From Woeseiaceae bacterium (GTDB lineage Bacteria; Pseudomonadota; Gammaproteobacteria; Steroidobacterales; Woeseiaceae), in contig JASJCQ010000011.1 in assembly GCA_030065915.1 (NCBI GenBank), forward strand, positions 1 to 64,000: a DNA stretch of 64,000 nt. Direction: 5' to 3'. Under the pieces are notes generated by a model. It ran no database searches. It was given only the letters and a program-made list of their open reading frames with translations, and was not told the DNA's origin. Position 1 is the first letter of the stretch, and each line of letters starts with the position of its first letter. Position numbers and translations under genes: made by a program. Shown one piece after another: positions 1,934-13,861 of the stretch.

Positions 1934-3283
1934 CTACCCCTGCGTCGGGTTCAAGGGCAGACGCAGCTCGACCAAAAGACCTTCCTCACTGTTTCGTGCA
2001 TCGATCGAGCCGTCGTGCATGGACACTGCCCTCGCTGCAATCGCCAGGCCCAGGCCGGTGCCATCCCTTTGCTCTGACCCTGTCGCTCGGTAGAACGGAT
2101 CGAACAGGTGCTCGAGGTCGTCTTCTGCGACACCGCCGCCGCTGTCCTGCACGCTGATCAGTAGTTGTTCGTCTTCTTCCGTGAGCGAGATCTGCACGTT
2201 GTCCCCACCGTGAATGACAGCATTGCGGAGGACGTTCTCAATAGCGCTTCGAAGGGCGCCGGCGTGAGCGGTCAGTTCGATGTTGTCGTCGCCACTGAAA
2301 TCGAGGGCAATGTCCCTGCCCTCGTGCTCGAACTTCACGTCATCGATGACGCTCTCGATCAGCTCGGCAAGAATGACCGTCTCGCGATCGCCGCTCATGT
2401 CGGCGTCCAGTTTCGAGAAGGTCAGCAACTGGCCGACCAGCGCGTCGAGTTTCTCGGCCTCGGCGTCGATGCGATCCAGCTCGGACAGTTCGCCGGTCTT
2501 GCGCCTGGCCAGTTCGAGGGCAATCTTGAGTCTTGCGAGCGGCGAGCGCAGCTCGTGGGAGACGTTGCTGGTCAGCTCGCCCTGACGCTGCCACGCGAGC
2601 TGCAGCTTGCGGGCCATGCGGTTGAAGTCCTGTGCCAGTGCGCCGATCTCGTCCTTACGTTTCTCGACCGTGTCGGGGATGCGCGTGTCGAGGTCGCCGC
2701 CGGCGATGGCGACGGTGGATTCGCGGAAGCGGAGGATGGGCTTTGAGATTGCACGCGCCAATAAATAAGAGACGCCGCCGCTGACTAACAGCAACAGGAT
2801 GACAAAGGTCAGGCGACTGCGCTCGGTCACCCAACGTGACACGGCGTTCTGCGGTGGCAGGACAACCAGTGTGTAAGTGTCGCCATCGGGGCCGACCAAC
2901 TGCGTAAACGGACGTGCCGGGCGCACGTTATCGCGGTCTCGCCAGCGTGGCGGGCGCATGCCGCCGAAGCGTTCGAACCGACGGATCACCTGCTTTACCG
3001 GTTGCGGGACCTTGCGGCCGAGCAGGTCTTCATCGCTCTCGTCGAGCACGAATACGATGGAGGCCGTGACCGATGGCAGTGAATCGAGCCAGTCGATGAG
3101 GCCGTCACGCCCGTTCTGTTCGAGTGACTCGCTGGCATCGAGCATCGCCTCGCTGACCTCGAAATTCTCCAGAGACGCGCGAGCGCGCTCGGCGTACAGG
3201 AAGCCGAGCGTCGCTGCCGTCGCGATCGTCAACGCTATTATCAGCCAGAAGCCGAGGAAGAAACGCATCAGCAAGCTTCGCAT
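1934..3283 (-). CDS. cpxA: Sensor histidine kinase, CpxA-like
   Basis: A 449-residue membrane histidine kinase. TM1 (about 9-28) and TM2 (about 158-177) flank a periplasmic sensor of about 130 residues; a HAMP linker follows, then a HisKA domain with the H-box NVSHELRSPLARLK (phospho-acceptor His243) and a HATPase_c domain with N-box ENVLRNAVIHGG, G1 DSGGG and G2 GTGLGLAIA. It starts 2 bases after the stop of the response regulator, so the two are cotranscribed. The order regulator-kinase with a divergent LTxxQ periplasmic protein matches the Cpx envelope-stress system. The symbol rests on that synteny and general resemblance; RstB-like kinases are an alternative. Confidence 0.85.
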   Translation of the reverse strand: MRSLLMRFFLGFWLIIALTIATAATLGFLYAERARASLENFEVSEAMLDASESLEQNGRDGLIDWLDSLPSVTASIVFVLDESDEDLLGRKVPQPVKQVIRRFERFGGMRPPRWRDRDNVRPARPFTQLVGPDGDTYTLVVLPPQNAVSRWVTERSRLTFVILLLLVSGGVSYLLARAISKPILRFRESTVAIAGGDLDTRIPDTVEKRKDEIGALAQDFNRMARKLQLAWQRQGELTSNVSHELRSPLARLKIALELARRKTGELSELDRIDAEAEKLDALVGQLLTFSKLDADMSGDRETVILAELIESVIDDVKFEHEGRDIALDFSGDDNIELTAHAGALRSAIENVLRNAVIHGGDNVQISLTEEDEQLLISVQDSGGGVAEDDLEHLFDPFYRATGSEQRDGTGLGLAIAARAVSMHDGSIDARNSEEGLLVELRLPLNPTQG

Positions 3284-3285
3284 GG

Positions 3286-3975
3286 CTAATCGTCCACCAG
3301 CAGGCTGTAGCCGACGCCGCGACGGCTCTGGATGGTCGGGCTTGTGACGCCGGCGTCTGCGAGTTTCTTGCGCAGGTTGCTCATGTGTGTGTCGAGGCTG
3401 CGGTCGTAGGGCATGTGCTTGCGGCCGAGGGCGCGCTGGGTCAGCTCGTCTTTCGACAGCACGGTGCCTGGCGACTCGGCCAAGCAGACCAGCAGGTCAA
3501 ACTCGCTGCCGGTCAGCTTCAGCGATGTCTTACCGGCCGTTACGCGTTGCGCCTTGAGGTCGATGGAGACTTCACCGGCCTGCAGACTTTGAGACGGCGT
3601 CGCCTCTGCCGTGCCGCGGCGCAGTATGGCCTTGATGCGAGCGAGCAGCTCGCGCGGGTTGAAGGGTTTGGACAGGTAGTCGTCGGCGCCGAGCTCCAAG
3701 CCGACGATGCGATCGATGTCGTCGCCTTTCGCGGTCAGCATGATCGTCGGAACGTTGCTGACCGTGCGAATCTCCTTCAGCACGTCGAGCCCGTTCATGC
3801 CCGGCAGCATGATGTCCAGGATCACGAGCTGGTAGCCGCCATCTTTGAGCGCTTCGATGCCGTCTTCGCCGCTCAATTGATGCGCCACGTCGAGATGCTC
3901 GGCCTCGAGATACTCCGTCAGCATCTCGCCGAGTTCACGGTCGTCATCGATGAGCAATAGTTTCGCGGTCGTCAC
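3286..3975 (-). CDS. cpxR: OmpR-family response regulator, CpxR-like
   Basis: A 229-residue response regulator. The receiver domain has the acidic pocket at D10-D12, the phospho-acceptor Asp54 (VILDIMLPG), the MLTAKGDD switch and the Lys in DDYLSKPF. The C-terminal winged helix (about 130-229) ends with the RGVGYSL motif of the OmpR/PhoB class. It is the first gene of a two-gene operon with the downstream kinase and is divergent from the Spy/CpxP-like gene at 4176. The resemblance to CpxR is clear in the receiver. The control region at 3976-4175 has direct TGACA repeats that could be its binding site. Confidence 0.88.
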   Translation of the reverse strand: MTTAKLLLIDDDRELGEMLTEYLEAEHLDVAHQLSGEDGIEALKDGGYQLVILDIMLPGMNGLDVLKEIRTVSNVPTIMLTAKGDDIDRIVGLELGADDYLSKPFNPRELLARIKAILRRGTAEATPSQSLQAGEVSIDLKAQRVTAGKTSLKLTGSEFDLLVCLAESPGTVLSKDELTQRALGRKHMPYDRSLDTHMSNLRKKLADAGVTSPTIQSRRGVGYSLLVDD

Positions 3976-6077: not shown

Positions 6078-7622
6078 TCAGTCCTCCCACGTGAGGCTAT
6101 TCAGGAAAGCAATAAGCTGGGCGGCCTCTTCGTCGTCAATGTCCAGCGGAAACAGCTCGTGCGCCGCTTCGCCCGACGGGGGATTCCGGTAGAAGGCGAT
6201 GACCGACTCGAGGTCCTTAAAGCGACCGTCGTGCATGTAGGGCGCGGAGTGTTTGACGTTTCTCAGGCTCGGGACCTTGAACGCCCCTTCCAAGGGCACG
6301 TGCGAGCCGCGGTTCAGGAACCGCATCTCCTTGCACGACTCCGGTCGTGCATCGCTGTACGGGCCCAGGCAGCTGAACTCATCCATCGACAGGGCCCGGA
6401 TGCCGAAGACGCGGCCGAAATCCAGACGATCGCCGGAGAAGGTTCCGGTGCCGATGTTGTGGAAGTCGCCGTTGGTCATCCAGCGTCCGTTGTGGCAGCG
6501 AAGGCAGTGCGTCCTTTCTTCGTCCAAAAACAGCTCGAGCCCGGCTCGTTCATCGGCAGTCAGCCATTCCGTTGCCGACTCATCGGGACTGAGCTCAGCC
6601 GCCACGTATCGATCGAAACGCGACACCGGATTCGGCAGGGTACGCTGCCAGGCCGCGAGGGCCTTTCCCAGGTTGGCGAAAACCCGGTTGACCGACTGCT
6701 GGGATCGGCGATCGAGAGCCGACCAGGCCGCTCGAAACGACGAATCGCCAAAGGGACCCGCGGCATCCGGCAACGAGTGCTCTGCCTTATCCAACGGCCA
6801 CGGGCCGAACGCCGCTTCGTAGGCTGCGCGGAGCTGTCTGTCCTTCCCGACCAGCCGCGTGATCGACACCCGGTCAGAGCCCATCTCGTCCGCGGCCTCG
6901 AGTGGCAACAGTGCCTGCGACCACAGCGAGTCACGGCGCCCGTCCCAGTAGAACCACTTAAGATGACCGGCGCCGATGACGGTTGGCGTATTTCGCGCCG
7001 TCTCCTGCATGCCCTGGGCGCGCGGCAAGCCGTCCGTGAAGAAGCGTTCGGGTTGATGGCAGGACGCACAGGACAGTTTGCCATTGGCACTCAGACGCGG
7101 ATCGAAGAACAGCCGCTCACCAAGCTCGGCCGCCTTCGGATTGTCGGCGACCCGGTTCGACGGTGACGGGGGTGGCAGAACGGAGTCGTCCAGCAACAGG
7201 CTTTTGAGTAGCTGCTCCCGATCGTCCTGCCAGGGCTTCACCTGCATCTCGAACACGACGCGATCGCGACTGTTCGCCGTCTCTATGCCGAAGGCGAGTA
7301 CCCACTCGCCCGGCATGCTGAGCTTGACGCCCGCGATGACGTGCCGGCCGTCGCCTAAGTATTCCGTCGCTGCCGGCTGGGTCGGCAATCCGTGGCCGTG
7401 ACCGGGCATCCCACCGCCCACACCGATGCGCACATCACGCAGCGGCGTGTCATCCTCCGCCGTGCGGAGCGTGAGCACCCAGTCCTGGATCTCGCCGATG
7501 CGAACACGTCCGTCGCGCGGGGCGAGGCTGGCCTCGTAAAGCCCGCCATCCGAGCCGGCACTCCATGTCGTGTCCCCAGCGGCCTGCCCGAAGGCAGCCA
7601 GCAGAACGAGCAGCCACGCCAT
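6078..7622 (-). CDS. YtkA-like domain fused to a MauG/cytochrome c peroxidase-type di-heme protein
   Basis: 514 residues. A signal peptide (1-16) is followed by a YtkA-like beta domain (about 25-130) with the metal-ligand-like motif MPGHGHGLP (72-80). A di-heme cytochrome c peroxidase/MauG domain follows, with haem motifs CASCH (185-189) and CLRCH (373-377) and the APYMHDGRF segment (Met463) where the family places a distal ligand or its replacement. The family reduces H2O2 or, in MauG and MbnH, uses it to oxidise a partner protein. It directly follows the 2063-residue oxidase: a possible GTG start at 7667 lies 2 bases beyond that stop, while the ATG at 7622 has GGAGG 12 bases upstream and heads the signal peptide. 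Cotranscription suggests the two act together. Confidence 0.85.
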   Translation of the reverse strand: MAWLLVLLAAFGQAAGDTTWSAGSDGGLYEASLAPRDGRVRIGEIQDWVLTLRTAEDDTPLRDVRIGVGGGMPGHGHGLPTQPAATEYLGDGRHVIAGVKLSMPGEWVLAFGIETANSRDRVVFEMQVKPWQDDREQLLKSLLLDDSVLPPPSPSNRVADNPKAAELGERLFFDPRLSANGKLSCASCHQPERFFTDGLPRAQGMQETARNTPTVIGAGHLKWFYWDGRRDSLWSQALLPLEAADEMGSDRVSITRLVGKDRQLRAAYEAAFGPWPLDKAEHSLPDAAGPFGDSSFRAAWSALDRRSQQSVNRVFANLGKALAAWQRTLPNPVSRFDRYVAAELSPDESATEWLTADERAGLELFLDEERTHCLRCHNGRWMTNGDFHNIGTGTFSGDRLDFGRVFGIRALSMDEFSCLGPYSDARPESCKEMRFLNRGSHVPLEGAFKVPSLRNVKHSAPYMHDGRFKDLESVIAFYRNPPSGEAAHELFPLDIDDEEAAQLIAFLNSLTWED

Positions 7623-7669: not shown

Positions 7670-10600
7670 CTACTGCAGCAGGAAGTACGAGACGACCTCG
7701 GCAAGGTGCTTGCGTTCGCTGTCTAAGACCTGGTCCTCGTCGTACGCCAGGTCCAGCTCGCCGCCCGCGAGCGGACTGGAGCCATAGAGCAAGGGCCAAC
7801 CGCCGTTATCGCCATTCATGCCAACCGAAGACACGACGCCGGCAGAATAGTTTCCACCAACGCTCGTGGTGTCGGGCGCGCCCTGCAATATGCCGCCAAT
7901 CGATTCCGCCGTCAGGCCGGCCACAAAGTCGACACCTTCGATGCTGCCGCTGCCGGCTTCAATAACGAAGTAGCCGATCGTCTCATCGAGCCTCGATGCA
8001 TCCGGGTCCTCGCCAACGTGCTTGCCGACTCCGAACGAGCTGGCGGTCGGCATACTCCGGTTGCTGCCGCCGCTGTTGGCCCAGAACACGCTCCAGCGCG
8101 CGTCGTTGGCGGACATCACCTGGCCGACCACGACGGGCGTCGTATACGCCTGCTGGTAGGTTTGCGCCGTCGTGACCCAGCTGTTGTGGTTGGAGGTCTG
8201 CGTCGACGTCATCGTGCCGGCCTCCATGGTTATTCCATGGTCGAGCTGGTTGTAAACACCGGCCTGTGCGACGACGTAGTTCACCGTGTAGCCGGCAAGC
8301 GGCTCGCCGCTCGGGTTCTGGACCCGAACGTCGAAGCTGTTACCGCCAGCGTTTCGTACTCTTGCAACGGCGGGCAACGCCGAATCGTCGTATTGCACCG
8401 AAGCGATGACGACCATGTCCGTATACGTGATCGGCACCGTGACCGTCTGCCAGGCGTCCCCGACCAGCGATACGGTTCCGTGCGCCAGCATCGGGCCGTC
8501 GCTGTTCGACAACTCGCTGCCCGATTCCAGTTCGCGGATCAATGCGCCGAGCTGGCCCAGCTCGGTTGCGGTCAGTGCCACACCGCTGTGCGCTGTAATG
8601 GCGGACTCGAGTGTCTGCTCCGAACCGTCGTGCAGGTAGGGAGCCGTTCCCCAGGCGCCGAGAAGCGTCGGCGTGTCGATACCCGTCAGCGGACCGTTGA
8701 GTCGCTGGCCGCTGCTGGCTTCGAGCGTACCTACGTCGTGCATGCCGTCGCCGTCGCTGCTGTCGGTCATCGGTATCGGCGTGTGACAGGTACCACAGCC
8801 CTCCGATTCGAACAGCAGCGCTCCGGCCTGGGCATCCGCGCTGAGTTGCCGGTCGAGACCGCGATAAGGGCTCGCCGGCACATCGCTGAGCGACGACACG
8901 TAAGCCGCCAGCGCGTCCAGGTCCGCACTGATGCCCGCCTTGGGATCGCCGAGTGGCTCCATGCGCGTACCGACGGTCAGGTCGGTTGCATCCATGAGGC
9001 CAAGCCCGCCCGCAAAGGTCCGGATCTGCATCTCGAAGTCCTGAACTTCGTCGAAGTTGGCCGTCCAGTGCAGGTTTCCGTGGTCCGTACCGCCACGTCC
9101 CTCAAGGCTGATGGTGTTGCGCAGGCCTTCGCCGATGCCGGTGAAGTCCCAGACACGCCCGTCTTCTCCGCCTTCGTTGTGGCAGGACGCGCAGCTCATG
9201 TAGTCCAGCGCGGCCAGCCGGTCGTCCCGCGCATCGTAGAAGAACTGCTTGCCGCGGAAGACTTCGGTCGGCAGCGATTCGGTGGCGACCGTTGTGATCG
9301 TCGCGATCTCGCTCGCTGCAACGACGCCCGACCCGATCAGCTGACTGACGTCGTAGATCCCTACGCTGCGGTCCATGAAGTTGTGCACATAGAGCCGCGT
9401 TCCGTCGGCCGATACGGTGACCGCCTGCGGTGCGCGTCCGACGTCGAAACGCAGCAGCTCGACACCGGACATGACATCGACGACGGCCACTTCCCGGTTG
9501 CCTTCGAGCGCGGTAAACAGGTGAATACCGTAAGGGCCGAAGGCAGCATGACTGGCCACGCTGGCGTTATCGTGATCGACACGCATCGTGAAGTTTTCCG
9601 TCATGGCCGGAATCTCGATCTTCGACGTGACGGCACGTACGGTCTGGTCGAAACTCATGCCCTGGCCGCCGCGAAGGGCGCCCGCGAGGACATTGTCCTG
9701 CTTCGACGGCACCCAGGCCGCTGAGCCATCGGGCGAGATGACGGCCGGACCGACGTAGTTCGGCACACCGGGACCGCTGTGCTCGGAGACCAGCCGATCG
9801 CTGTGCTGCAGGACGACCGTGTCCGTCGTTGCGAGGCTCGACGGATTGAGGATCAGGACCTCGGCGCCGTACAAGGTGCCTCCATCGTCCACAACGGGTA
9901 CGCCGATACCTTCGTCGGGCAGCGGCGGGGTGACAAAGAGCGATGCCATGAGCTGCGATTCCGCGCCGTCCAGCGACAGGTGGCGAACGCGATCGCCGAC
10001 CCAGGCGCGGGTGAGTTCGGCGCCCGTGGTTGCGTCAAGTGCCACGACCTCGCCGGTCGCCTCGAGGGCAACGTAGGCCGTCGTCGCGCCGATGACCAGG
10101 CCATGTGGCTGCGAGCCCACGGTCAGGAACAGAACATCGCTGGCCGTGTAGGTCGCGGGATCGATGACCGTGATCGTCGCAGCACCCTTGCTGACGACCC
10201 AGACGCTGCCGTTCGGCGCGATGGCCAGTCCACGAGGTTCATCGCCCACCGGAATCTCGGCCACCACGGCCTGCATCAGGGTGTCGACGACCGTTACCGA
10301 ATCGTTGTCGGGGTTGACGTTCCAGACCTCATCCCGGGAGGCATACTCGACGATACCGCCCGACACGCTGGGCGCATTGGCTGTCAGCGGCAGATGCACC
10401 AGCTGCGTGAATATGAACTCCTGGGTGTTTCCATCGGAGTCGCGGACCGTCAGTGTGACGAGGTGACGACCGGGCGTCGTGAAGACGTGTGTTGCCGTGT
10501 CATTCGTTGTGAACGGTGTCGGACCGTCGCCGAAGTTCCAGCTGTATTCGAGCGTCCCTACGCCGGTCGCGGATGCGACAAAGCTTGCCGTCGAGCCGCT

Positions 10601-13600
10601 TGCCTCCGGTGCGTTGCTTACGCCGGCGATCACGACATCCGCGATGGTCTGCTCCATCGCAATGTACGCGACCTGGTCAGTCGTTCGACTGCGCTCGCTG
10701 TCGGCGATCTGGTCTTCATCGATCGCGAGATCGAGCTCGGCGCCGTTAATCTGCGGGCCGTACAGCAGGGGCCAGCCGCCGTTTCTGCCGTCCATTCCGG
10801 CACTGGCGACGACGGCCACGTTGTAGCTGCCGCTCAGTGAATAGCGATACGGCGGCGCATTGACGACACCGAGGACGGTATCGGCGCCGAGGCCAGCCTC
10901 GTAGGCGACGCCAGCCGCAGTGCCGGAACCGCTTTCAAAGACGAGGTAGCCGACCGTTTCAGCATTCCTTGCGACCGTGGTGTCTTCCGCAACATGTTTA
11001 CCCACATGGAGCGAACTGACCGACGGCGGGTTGCCGCTCGTGCCGTCGGAGGCCCAGAACACACTCCATCGATCGTCGTTGGCGGTCATCACCTGGCCCA
11101 CGACGACCGGGTTGGTGTAAGCCTGTTGATAGGCCCTCGACTCGCCTACCCAGCTGCCGTTCTCGTCGGTCAGCGTCGAAGAATATTTGACGGCCTCCAT
11201 CTTGAGACCGGCCTGGTCGTAGACGCCGGCCTCGACGACGACATAGTTGACCGCGTAGCCGCTGAGCGCAGTGTCGCTCGGATTCTGAACGCGAACGTCG
11301 AAACTGTTGCCTGCGGCGCTTCGGACGCGGGTGACTGCCGGCAACTGGGTATCGTCGTAACGAACGGACGCAACGACGACCGGATCGACGAAGCTCTGTG
11401 ACAGAGTGACCGTCTGCCAATCGCTGCCGACGTTTTCCAGCACGCCGTTCTCGACTTTCAGGTCATTACTCGGCGGCGGCGGTAAGGGCGCGTCGCCGAA
11501 AATCTGTACTTCGGCGAGCTGCAGGTTGTCCTGGCTGGCCAGTTGAATGCGAACGTATCGCCCGTTCGCGCTTACCGCGAAATTCGTCTGCTGGCCGGCT
11601 ACGCCGGGATGGAAGATCTCGACGACGCCAGCCTGTTGACGCGTTTCGAACAGGTCTTGTGACGTGAAAGGCGTCTCCGACACGAGAACGTAGAAGTCGC
11701 TGAGCCGGTCCGCACAGCAGTCGGTGCGATTCCACAAGCGCAGCGTATCGATCCCATAGACCTGTCCGAGGTCGATCTCCCACCACGCGTTCGTGTCGGA
11801 CTGTGTGCTTGCCAGCGAGCCCGAGACCTCGGTTCCGGTCAGGTCACCGTCGATGGCATTCGCCGCGGAAAGATCCCCGGTTCCGGTCGCCGTAGACGAC
11901 TGGCTCACGATTCCGGTCAGTGCGCGGTTCTCGAGGCGCGCATCGACGGCCGTTACGCGGATCACGTGTGCCTCGGAGGGTACGCCGCTGTCATTCACGG
12001 CGAACAGCATCCAGTAGCCCGGCGTCGCAACGTTGGGATTGCTGTGCAGCGTCACGTCGTAGTTGTTGCCACCCGTGGCGGCGAAGGCCGGACGCAGGTA
12101 GCGGACATCGGTGTTCAACCCGTGCGTCGTTGACGACATCTTGATCATCGAGAAGTACGCGATGGACTCCGACGCCCCGATATTGAAAGTGGCGCCGACC
12201 TCGACCTCACCCGATGTGCTTGAAATCACCGGCTGAACGGCAGGCGTGCCGTCCGGGTTGAACAGATACGGCGGCGAGTACACCTGGCCGTCCTGGTGCG
12301 TGGAAGCCGGCACACTGTTCGAGTTGTAACCGCTGCCCGCCGCGAGAACGCGACCGTCCGTCAGCAACAGGGCGACCGAATGGTAGTTTCGCGGGATCGT
12401 CATCGGCGCGCCTTCACGCCACGTCCCCGTGACGGGATTCCAGAACTCCGGCACGAGTATGGCGCCGTCGTCGCTGAATTTGCGGCCGGAGGTATTGCCG
12501 CCAACGACCAGGACCTCACCGGTCGGGAGCATGACGCCGTTCTGGAATTTACGCGCGTGCAGCATCGGTTGCGTAGCGGCGACGACCGGCGCGGGACCGG
12601 TCAGGTCGACGGTGAATGCCTGGTTGGTGCTCCGGGTATTGTTGCCGCTGATCCAGCCACCGGCGGTCAGCAACTTGCCTTCGTCGTACATGACCGTCGT
12701 GCCGTGCTTGTGATACCAGTCGGTGAAGGCACCGCCGACGGCTTCGTAACTGCCGTCGCCAGCGGGATTGATCCAGTGCATCTGCGGCGTTGGGCCCGAG
12801 TGGAACAGTTTTCCGTTCGGCGCAACATGGAGCAGCGGCCACCAGCGGCTTTCACCGTGACTACCCCCCGAGAAATAGTCATCGAGAACCATGTCATTGA
12901 AGTCGATGCCGGTCTGGATCCTCCAGCCACTGTCGGAATTCCAGCGATCGGGGTAGCGCTGGTTGGTGGCGGTACCAATCGCCGTAAACATGTCGCCATC
13001 CGTCAGCGCGACCGTGGTCGGGTACCAGCGACCGCCGGAGGCCATGTTTTCGATCTGTGTCCAGCTGTTGTCACGGTAGTCGAAAAGGCTGGTCCACGGG
13101 CTGTTCGTCTGGTTGCGGCCACCGTTAACGAACACACGACCGTCTTCCGCCATCGCGAGATGTGCACAGAACATGTTGTGCCCGTCGTGGAAGATTTCGA
13201 CGAACTCACCGGTCGCGGGGTCCCAGGTGCCGCTGTAAGTCTGCTCAGTGCTCGGCCATGTGTCGCGTTCCGAGCCGGACCATGTCAGAACGCGGCCGTC
13301 GGGGAGGTTGGCCGCGGACACGGCGACGTGTGGCCAGGGAATCACCGGACCCCACTGCCCGTCGGCGTAAGCATCGGGCGCCGTGCCAATGACTCCGTCA
13401 GACGCTATCGGCTGGCGGCCGTTGCTCGAGTTGCTCCAGCTAACGGCAAGCACCTCGCCACCGCCCTGTTCAAAGAAGGTGACAACGATGGTGTAAGTGC
13501 CGGGAGAGAGAACGATGTTGCCTGACGCGTCGCGCGGCCCGTGCAATCCGTCGTTATCCACAACGAGCGCACCGTCGATGAAGAGTTGCGAGCCATCGTC

Positions 13601-13861
13601 GGAATTGGTGTAGAACGTGTAGGTATCGCTGGTCTCGACGGTGATCGTTCCGGTGAATCGAAAACCGTATTGCGAGTCACGAAGGCGGACGGAAATGTCG
13701 AAGTCTTGGGTAGTACCGGTCGTTACCGGTGTCAGAGCATCGAAGTTGGGCAGGACGCTCCAATTGCCCTCGTAGTACTCGTAGTTATAGTCGGCGAAGG
13801 CGGCCCCGAACCACAGCAACAACAGAAACCCGACAAACGGGCGAACTCGACGTCCACGCAT
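7670..13861 (-). CDS. Giant secreted copper-radical oxidase fused to di-heme cytochrome c and propeller modules
   Basis: 2063 residues with a signal peptide (1-23). In order: PA14-like domain (25-150); galactose/glyoxal-oxidase propeller plus DUF1929-type domain (about 160-640); discoidin-like F5/8 domain (645-790); an unrecognised module (801-1070); PKD domain (1080-1155); YVTN-type propeller (1165-1510); di-heme cytochrome c region with CASCH (1557-1561) and CGTCH (1689-1693); a second copy of the 801-1070 module (1792-2063). All copper-radical ligands are visible: Cys232 (MFCAH) and Tyr280 (GRWYP) for the Tyr-Cys cofactor, Tyr493-His494 (PRNYHS) and His580 (THGLNTD). Such oxidases turn alcohols or aldehydes into H2O2 and aldehyde or acid outside the cell. 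The cytochrome part has APYLHDG where peroxidases usually have APYMHDG. The downstream gene encodes a separate di-heme peroxidase-like protein. Confidence 0.88.
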   Translation of the reverse strand: MRGRRVRPFVGFLLLLWFGAAFADYNYEYYEGNWSVLPNFDALTPVTTGTTQDFDISVRLRDSQYGFRFTGTITVETSDTYTFYTNSDDGSQLFIDGALVVDNDGLHGPRDASGNIVLSPGTYTIVVTFFEQGGGEVLAVSWSNSSNGRQPIASDGVIGTAPDAYADGQWGPVIPWPHVAVSAANLPDGRVLTWSGSERDTWPSTEQTYSGTWDPATGEFVEIFHDGHNMFCAHLAMAEDGRVFVNGGRNQTNSPWTSLFDYRDNSWTQIENMASGGRWYPTTVALTDGDMFTAIGTATNQRYPDRWNSDSGWRIQTGIDFNDMVLDDYFSGGSHGESRWWPLLHVAPNGKLFHSGPTPQMHWINPAGDGSYEAVGGAFTDWYHKHGTTVMYDEGKLLTAGGWISGNNTRSTNQAFTVDLTGPAPVVAATQPMLHARKFQNGVMLPTGEVLVVGGNTSGRKFSDDGAILVPEFWNPVTGTWREGAPMTIPRNYHSVALLLTDGRVLAAGSGYNSNSVPASTHQDGQVYSPPYLFNPDGTPAVQPVISSTSGEVEVGATFNIGASESIAYFSMIKMSSTTHGLNTDVRYLRPAFAATGGNNYDVTLHSNPNVATPGYWMLFAVNDSGVPSEAHVIRVTAVDARLENRALTGIVSQSSTATGTGDLSAANAIDGDLTGTEVSGSLASTQSDTNAWWEIDLGQVYGIDTLRLWNRTDCCADRLSDFYVLVSETPFTSQDLFETRQQAGVVEIFHPGVAGQQTNFAVSANGRYVRIQLASQDNLQLAEVQIFGDAPLPPPPSNDLKVENGVLENVGSDWQTVTLSQSFVDPVVVASVRYDDTQLPAVTRVRSAAGNSFDVRVQNPSDTALSGYAVNYVVVEAGVYDQAGLKMEAVKYSSTLTDENGSWVGESRAYQQAYTNPVVVGQVMTANDDRWSVFWASDGTSGNPPSVSSLHVGKHVAEDTTVARNAETVGYLVFESGSGTAAGVAYEAGLGADTVLGVVNAPPYRYSLSGSYNVAVVASAGMDGRNGGWPLLYGPQINGAELDLAIDEDQIADSERSRTTDQVAYIAMEQTIADVVIAGVSNAPEASGSTASFVASATGVGTLEYSWNFGDGPTPFTTNDTATHVFTTPGRHLVTLTVRDSDGNTQEFIFTQLVHLPLTANAPSVSGGIVEYASRDEVWNVNPDNDSVTVVDTLMQAVVAEIPVGDEPRGLAIAPNGSVWVVSKGAATITVIDPATYTASDVLFLTVGSQPHGLVIGATTAYVALEATGEVVALDATTGAELTRAWVGDRVRHLSLDGAESQLMASLFVTPPLPDEGIGVPVVDDGGTLYGAEVLILNPSSLATTDTVVLQHSDRLVSEHSGPGVPNYVGPAVISPDGSAAWVPSKQDNVLAGALRGGQGMSFDQTVRAVTSKIEIPAMTENFTMRVDHDNASVASHAAFGPYGIHLFTALEGNREVAVVDVMSGVELLRFDVGRAPQAVTVSADGTRLYVHNFMDRSVGIYDVSQLIGSGVVAASEIATITTVATESLPTEVFRGKQFFYDARDDRLAALDYMSCASCHNEGGEDGRVWDFTGIGEGLRNTISLEGRGGTDHGNLHWTANFDEVQDFEMQIRTFAGGLGLMDATDLTVGTRMEPLGDPKAGISADLDALAAYVSSLSDVPASPYRGLDRQLSADAQAGALLFESEGCGTCHTPIPMTDSSDGDGMHDVGTLEASSGQRLNGPLTGIDTPTLLGAWGTAPYLHDGSEQTLESAITAHSGVALTATELGQLGALIRELESGSELSNSDGPMLAHGTVSLVGDAWQTVTVPITYTDMVVIASVQYDDSALPAVARVRNAGGNSFDVRVQNPSGEPLAGYTVNYVVAQAGVYNQLDHGITMEAGTMTSTQTSNHNSWVTTAQTYQQAYTTPVVVGQVMSANDARWSVFWANSGGSNRSMPTASSFGVGKHVGEDPDASRLDETIGYFVIEAGSGSIEGVDFVAGLTAESIGGILQGAPDTTSVGGNYSAGVVSSVGMNGDNGGWPLLYGSSPLAGGELDLAYDEDQVLDSERKHLAEVVSYFLLQ

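Follow-up and report, generated by a model that had tools for sequence, protein, structure and literature searches.

Copper-radical oxidases, such as galactose oxidase and the GlxA-type enzymes, combine a kelch propeller with an E-set domain and hold a Cys-Tyr pair together with Tyr/His/His ligands. They rest in a non-radical state and need a one-electron oxidation, which, in the available part of a study on fungi, is supplied to a copper-radical alcohol oxidase by a tandem heme peroxidase, with supporting electron paramagnetic resonance results (PMC9770985). In Streptomyces, the copper-radical oxidase GlxA is linked to a heme protein, the DyP-type peroxidase DtpA, and to Sco, both of which are required for GlxA maturation at low copper, as far as the accessible text of that report goes (PMC4736821). 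Hydrazine synthase (HZS) beta-gamma shows a propeller followed by a di-heme domain, and its gamma portion is described, in the part of the source at hand, as carrying an active heme I and a bis-His heme II (about -330 mV) proposed to accept electrons from cytochrome c (PMC12607021). Here, we analyse a gene that encodes one chain of 2063 residues and has features in common with these systems. It lies in a stretch of 64,000 nt (the window) of Woeseiaceae bacterium GCA_030065915.1, contig JASJCQ010000011.1, positions 1 to 64,000 of the forward strand.

The fusion shares the oxidase fold and residues of galactose oxidase; unlike the solved galactose oxidases that it matches (488-714 residues), it continues for about 1400 further residues that include a propeller and two heme sites. 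It has the propeller and di-heme order of HZS beta-gamma, whereas here the module is joined to a copper-radical oxidase and reaches only a fraction of the score required for that family. The fungal tandem also pairs an oxidase with a heme partner, but consists of two proteins, the second from another heme enzyme class, whereas the window gene encodes a single polypeptide in which both heme sites are of c type. The Streptomyces genes are separate, whereas the heme part is fused here. With the bacterial di-heme peroxidases, MauG and BthA, the chain shares two CxxCH motifs, a YxHDG region and weak matches to the CCP_MauG and MauG profiles. Judged from sequence, this is a real, recurrent architecture, and it gives a fresh form to a pairing already known, that of copper-radical oxidases with heme partners. 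The fusion was not described in the titles and abstract openings among the matches listed from the open-licence PMC literature. The word "cytochrome" was not found in the available part of a survey from 2013 that covers galactose oxidase-like proteins (PMC3543389), nor "galactose oxidase" in the main text, as far as accessible, of a paper on HZS beta-gamma relatives (PMC12758564).

The two redox halves of the chain

Conservation was counted over 77 oxidase rows (the window and 76 others) and 82 module rows, using at each site the rows with sequence there. The features of the oxidase half are the following:

7670..13861, minus strand: whole fusion gene, 2063 aa, with copper-radical oxidase, PKD, propeller and di-heme module
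11942..13384, minus strand: copper-radical oxidase, residues 160-640, made up of a kelch propeller of galactose oxidase type and an E-set, from the match to solved galactose oxidase
13166..13168, minus strand: Cys232, presumed cross-link partner of Tyr280; Cys in 70/71 rows (77 total)
13022..13024, minus strand: Tyr280, presumed radical tyrosine; 73/73 rows (77 total)
12380..12385, minus strand: Tyr493-His494, presumed copper ligands; 77/77 rows
12122..12124, minus strand: His580, presumed copper ligand; 77/77 rows

Residues 160-640 align with the solved galactose oxidase 9g8h/9g43 (best E 3.8e-89), and the five residues that an earlier note on this DNA had picked out as those of a copper-radical site (C232, Y280, Y493, H494 and H580) sit at its ligand positions, as they do in the other fusions. 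The Pfam GO-like E-set match (residues 544-636) scores 76.3 bits against a cut-off of 25; it is the one such match in the window's genome, and 14 control genomes gave none. The GlxA equivalog of NCBIfam (NF052501) is reached with 153 of the 800 bits required, below its cut-off. By alignment, the oxidase site of the window fusion is of the complete copper-radical (galactose/glyoxal-oxidase) type. Together with the heme motifs, its ligands are almost invariant among the aligned relatives, more than expected by chance on these counts.

Two side observations concern the surroundings of the site. Ala replaces Cys232 in a fusion from a Leucothrix mucor metagenome-assembled genome (MAG; L064:2328-7157). 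Of 73 fused oxidase rows, 57 have W immediately before the radical Tyr, 13 have G, two have A and one has Y; a solved bacterial galactose oxidase has G at this position. One heme module may serve different oxidase types.

The di-heme half was delimited as follows:

8558..9274, minus strand: di-heme module, residues 1530-1768, from profile matches and two CxxCH
9179..9193, minus strand: heme I site CASCH, residues 1557-1561; C, C and H in 82/82 rows
8783..8797, minus strand: heme II site CGTCH, residues 1689-1693; C, C and H in 81/81 rows (82 total)
8588..8590, minus strand: His1758, candidate second ligand of heme II by alignment; at least 97% of rows

His1758 is also kept in all 25 members of a set of complete, diverse fusions, and W1599 in 80 of 81 module rows. 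When the di-heme profile was compared with solved structures, the top match was HZS gamma (5c2v_C, E 6.7e-18), followed by bacterial peroxidases, 6e1c (which we take to be BthA) and MauG. His1758 aligns with a Met of the peroxidases 3o5c and 1iqc, a position that is presumably the axial ligand of their C-terminal heme. The Pfam CCP_MauG match (residues 1537-1586) covers only positions 7-56 of the 149 in the profile, and the TTQ_mauG equivalog is reached with 28 of the 443.85 bits required, below its cut-off. The NCBIfam hydrazine_BC match (residues 1470-1712, E 8.9e-9) is also below cut-off, with 34.1 of 1250 bits.

A canonical di-heme peroxidase was thus rejected as identity of the module, on account of His1758 in place of Met and the partial CCP_MauG match. 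Because HZS gamma is the top match, His1758 is present and heme II of HZS gamma is bis-His, the module appears to be related to HZS beta-gamma, and its second heme is probably bis-His. The His where classical cytochrome c peroxidases (CcPs) have Met suggests, in addition, a low-potential heme II. Both CxxCH motifs had been read correctly in the earlier note. Its description of the region as peroxidase-like holds only in part: the partial CCP_MauG match speaks for it, whereas HZS gamma is nearer than a classical di-heme peroxidase, with the hydrazine synthase family match itself far below cut-off.

Recurrence, architecture and evolution of the fusion

An oxidase-domain search of 119 near genomes gave matches in 12, the window's own included. 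At 10 of the 13 places outside the window, the oxidase and both heme sites stand in one frame; two of the other three are cut by contig ends (L022 and L028), and the third is a 552-aa oxidase without heme (L027). Genome contigs were also scanned with the propeller and di-heme alignment, and the best 80 of at least 411 relatives are the named loci referred to below, which lean towards fused forms because they are the best-scoring part. Among these, 76 of the 81 open reading frames (ORFs) bearing the module also contain the oxidase; the remaining five start right at the edge of their contig. The earlier note had asked for a search for other proteins with both parts, and had named homologues consistently lacking the cytochrome part or the radical ligands as evidence against its idea; such consistent absence is not what was found. 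By record label, the 81 ORFs belong to Pseudomonadota (64), Verrucomicrobiota (11), Myxococcota (three), Planctomycetota (two) and Chloroflexota (one); many are MAGs, and some of the labels may be wrong. The closest relative among the named loci is a Woeseiaceae MAG contig (L029), with a module 94% identical to that of the window. Two further copies deserve mention: one on a contig labelled Phycisphaerae, possibly a binning error, has a module 72% identical to that of the window (L098), and a Planctomycetota copy (L096:3535-7884) has its frame broken between the two heme sites.

Samples drawn evenly from the class (274 genomes) and from the phylum (398 genomes) were searched too, scoring the top three to four candidates per genome; in one sample, 35 of 40 listed places, covering at most 167 model positions, were left out. 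They gave seven near-full-length module places besides the window, with the oxidase in the same ORF at four (G161, G306 twice and G450). The proposition that the module always carries an oxidase was rejected on the remaining three (G372 and G754 twice). The oxidase-free modules (L109, L131, L132; G372, G754 twice) stand behind Big_5, and those of L131 and L132 (G754) also behind LVIVD and LamG; these proteins are a sister architecture.

The remaining parts of the window protein are listed here:

13793..13861, minus strand: likely Sec signal peptide, residues 1-23, judged by eye
13400..13669, minus strand: PA14 domain, residues 65-154 (Pfam, E 1.9e-13)
11528..11905, minus strand: F5/8 type C (discoidin) domain, residues 653-778 (Pfam, E 8e-12)
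10652..11455, minus strand: repeat copy A, residues about 803-1070, from comparison with copy B
10421..10606, minus strand: PKD domain, residues 1086-1147, preceding the propeller (Pfam PKD_4, E 1.3e-12)
9275..10384, minus strand: YVTN-type beta-propeller, residues about 1160-1529 (NCBIfam YVTN repeat match)
7673..8488, minus strand: repeat copy B, residues about 1792-2063, from comparison with copy A

The PA14, discoidin, PKD and propeller modules named in the earlier note were all recovered in the Pfam/NCBIfam search of the whole protein, which is apparently secreted, judging from the Sec-type export signal read by eye. A repeat of about 270 aa occurs twice, its copies A and B being 54% identical over 272 columns. 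Pfam was run on 25 fusions chosen as complete and diverse: GO-like E-set, CCP_MauG and PKD were each found in 25/25, PA14 in 17, He_PIG in 15 and F5/8C in eight. E-set and CCP_MauG were also present in 7/7 further fusions (L020, L023, L024, L026, L025, L051 and L082). PKD was found in 29/32 altogether, so that its constant presence was rejected: L023, L024 and L025 show no Pfam match to it. L023 has an H-type lectin match between oxidase and propeller. In a short fusion from Leptothrix sp. C29 (L056), PKD (623-696) is the sole Pfam match in that region. Over 76 ORFs, the stretch from the oxidase end to the propeller start has a median of 398 aa, with extremes of 97 and 1055 aa. From these Pfam counts and the variable stretch, we consider that oxidase, propeller and di-heme module are the constant core. 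Modules of sugar-binding type around it vary, and PA14, discoidin, lectin and Ig-type modules are exchanged among members.

The tree distances of the two halves correlate (Mantel r 0.54, with 0/999 permutations as high, 79 rows), and the oxidase is about 1.8 times more diverged than the module (median ratio 1.78, same rows), which points to a steadier redox half behind changing oxidases. Of the starred oxidase splits with at least four rows, 16/21 agree with all starred module splits; the five largest contradict some of them. Joint inheritance inside lineages, together with a degree of swapping of halves, fits these results. In the oxidase tree, the fused oxidases do not form one side of any branch, and a single origin of the fused form was not supported: this quick LG+G4 tree needs five label changes, at least four forced by starred branches, with two of its 10 rows labelled free (L022 and L110) stopping at a contig edge and possibly fused.

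Neighbouring genes

The counts for neighbouring genes are lower bounds, as the flank lengths differ among the 80 named loci. In the window, a separate gene lies downstream of the fusion:

6078..7622, minus strand: di-heme protein of MauG/CcP type, which also gives a YtkA-like match below threshold (Pfam, NCBIfam)

Its ATG (7622) is 47 nt past the fusion stop. The product covers CCP_MauG positions 2-146 of 149 and scores 141.5 bits with TTQ_mauG, below 443.85. A Tyr after its YMHDG motif aligns with a Tyr of 6e1c. A MauG-like gene adjoins the fusion in 14/80 loci, and an obligatory partnership was rejected on this count. One of the 14 lies on the opposite strand (L041), four are low-scoring (L053, L078, L080 and L085), and L029-L032 and L048 appear to duplicate L016-L020, among the eight rows building the search model. 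Farther on, histidine kinase and response regulator genes are found on the same strand (window 1934-3975), about 3.7 kb beyond the fusion stop.

A separate SCO-like gene adjoins the fusion in 28/80 loci (Pfam SCO1-SenC confirmed for L059), with no overlap with the MauG loci. A sco gene adjoining oxidase genes was already known in some Burkholderia, as the available text of the Streptomyces study indicates (PMC4736821). A small cytochrome c gene is also present in 14 loci, all of them SCO loci, and its alignment shows CxxCH in 10 of 12 named rows; at the other 66, no match was found in the flanks covered. One Comamonadaceae plasmid is annotated with a "discoidin domain-containing protein", which is the fusion, then a hypothetical protein, which is the cytochrome, and then SCO. 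In one locus beyond these 28, from a single Woeseia MAG (L082:3-7166), SCO1-SenC is inside the fusion ORF itself (residues 2228-2355 of 2388, nt 6684-7067, E 5.4e-35), the order being oxidase, PKD, propeller, di-heme, Ig repeats and SCO1-SenC. Elsewhere (L119:36-3890), a copper-radical oxidase with RTX repeats stands alone, and about 130 nt after it comes a gene for a DHOR di-heme oxidoreductase; the pair may be the fusion in two-gene form.

Possible functions of the joined halves

We propose, with a probability of about 0.42, that the fusion is a secreted copper-radical oxidase to which a redox partner is covalently attached, and that this partner maintains the activity of the Cu-radical site and consumes the H2O2 formed there. 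The oxidase would oxidise an alcohol or aldehyde of the surface or of a polysaccharide, reducing O2 to H2O2. The di-heme module would consume this H2O2, with heme I as the reaction site, while heme II, as a bis-His heme, would relay electrons either to a small c-type cytochrome or from one. Such use of H2O2 would help to bring the Tyr-Cys copper site to its active oxidation state, or keep it there, and would remove peroxide. A heme part within the chain, and SCO beside or inside it at many loci, fit tasks of activation, maturation and peroxide removal by analogy with the described systems, and DtpA has also been proposed to remove H2O2 in the text available (PMC4736821). The proposal is further supported by the recurrence of the fusion with both sites intact, by the steadier module behind faster-diverging oxidases, by the SCO, small cytochrome c and MauG-like neighbours and by the L119 gene pair. 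In view of the variable stretch between the halves, contact or local transfer of peroxide is favoured over a fixed wire. As the heme half is nearer HZS gamma, the idea of the earlier note that the enzyme both makes and uses H2O2 stays something that we infer. The sequences show the architecture, the ligand residues, the distribution and the neighbours; H2O2 production, heme ligation, activation and peroxide use are predictions.

Several points weigh against this proposal. By CCP_MauG coverage and His1758, the heme module falls outside the canonical peroxidases, and a stretch of such variable length does not imply a fixed docking geometry between the halves. The module occurs without oxidase at 3/7 of the evenly sampled places, and oxidase ORFs without the module also exist. 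In the accessible part of the Streptomyces report, DtpA is proposed to oxidise the Cu(I) that Sco binds, and the mutant recovers when copper is supplied, which speaks of maturation and not of radical activation (PMC4736821). A tandem of a copper-radical oxidase and a catalase in Verticillium gave no sign of a shared role in the portion of the paper available (PMC13390370).

Two alternatives are, in our opinion, improbable to a similar degree. In the first, a small cytochrome c would supply the electrons with which the heme half reduces H2O2 coming from the oxidase; the heme half would thereby protect the cell and have no role at the copper site. The small cytochrome c gene beside the fusion would provide the donor; it is, however, without a match in the flanks covered at 66 of the 80 loci, and a low-potential heme II, as suggested by His1758, would be unlike that of classical CcPs. 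In the second, the heme half acts on a polymer or another small molecule, and the fusion shares only targeting modules between two catalysts on one surface. The oxidase-free modules behind Big_5 (in two of three also LVIVD and LamG) argue for it, as do a lone 651-aa Anoxybacillus protein that is the module alone (30% identity) and the high prevalence of HZS beta-gamma relatives in environmental bacteria, reported in the available part of PMC12758564. Against it stands the company that the module keeps, with the oxidase in 76/81 ORFs of the similarity-ranked scan and at 4/7 of the evenly sampled places.

A copper-radical dehydrogenase, in which the reduced copper site would pass electrons through the hemes to a membrane cytochrome instead of O2 with little H2O2 formed, seems still more doubtful. 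Both centres are in one chain and the small cytochrome c and SCO genes are adjacent in 14 loci, but a connecting stretch of 97-1055 aa argues against a fixed wire, and a bis-His heme near the potential of HZS gamma heme II would presumably be uphill from the copper centre. The suggestion of the earlier note that electrons go to haem instead of O2 looks less likely. Finally, an artefact joining two genes through an assembly or frame error can be rejected with near certainty, and nothing was found in its favour. The window frame 7670-13861(-) is open from ATG over all 2063 aa without interruption. The same single-frame arrangement recurs in many other assemblies, whose oxidases range between 97% and 34% identity to that of the window, so that no frameshift, which the earlier note had named as counter-evidence, is needed.

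How the radical state of copper-radical oxidases is activated and kept up in nature is not settled, and in some fungi separate peroxidases do so. A putative partner inside the same chain makes this question directly testable in one protein. In reactions with galactose oxidase, peroxidase and catalase are usually added, and two papers name both among their reagents; we think that the fusion could be a self-contained biocatalyst. A broader view, which we hold to be unlikely, is that of a widespread enzyme class in which a copper-tyrosyl-radical centre and c-type hemes share an electron path, wired to respiratory cytochromes and having, in some members, its own copper chaperone. If that were true, the cytochromes would serve the copper-radical chemistry as donor, activator or acceptor, and these enzymes would not be O2 oxidases working on their own.

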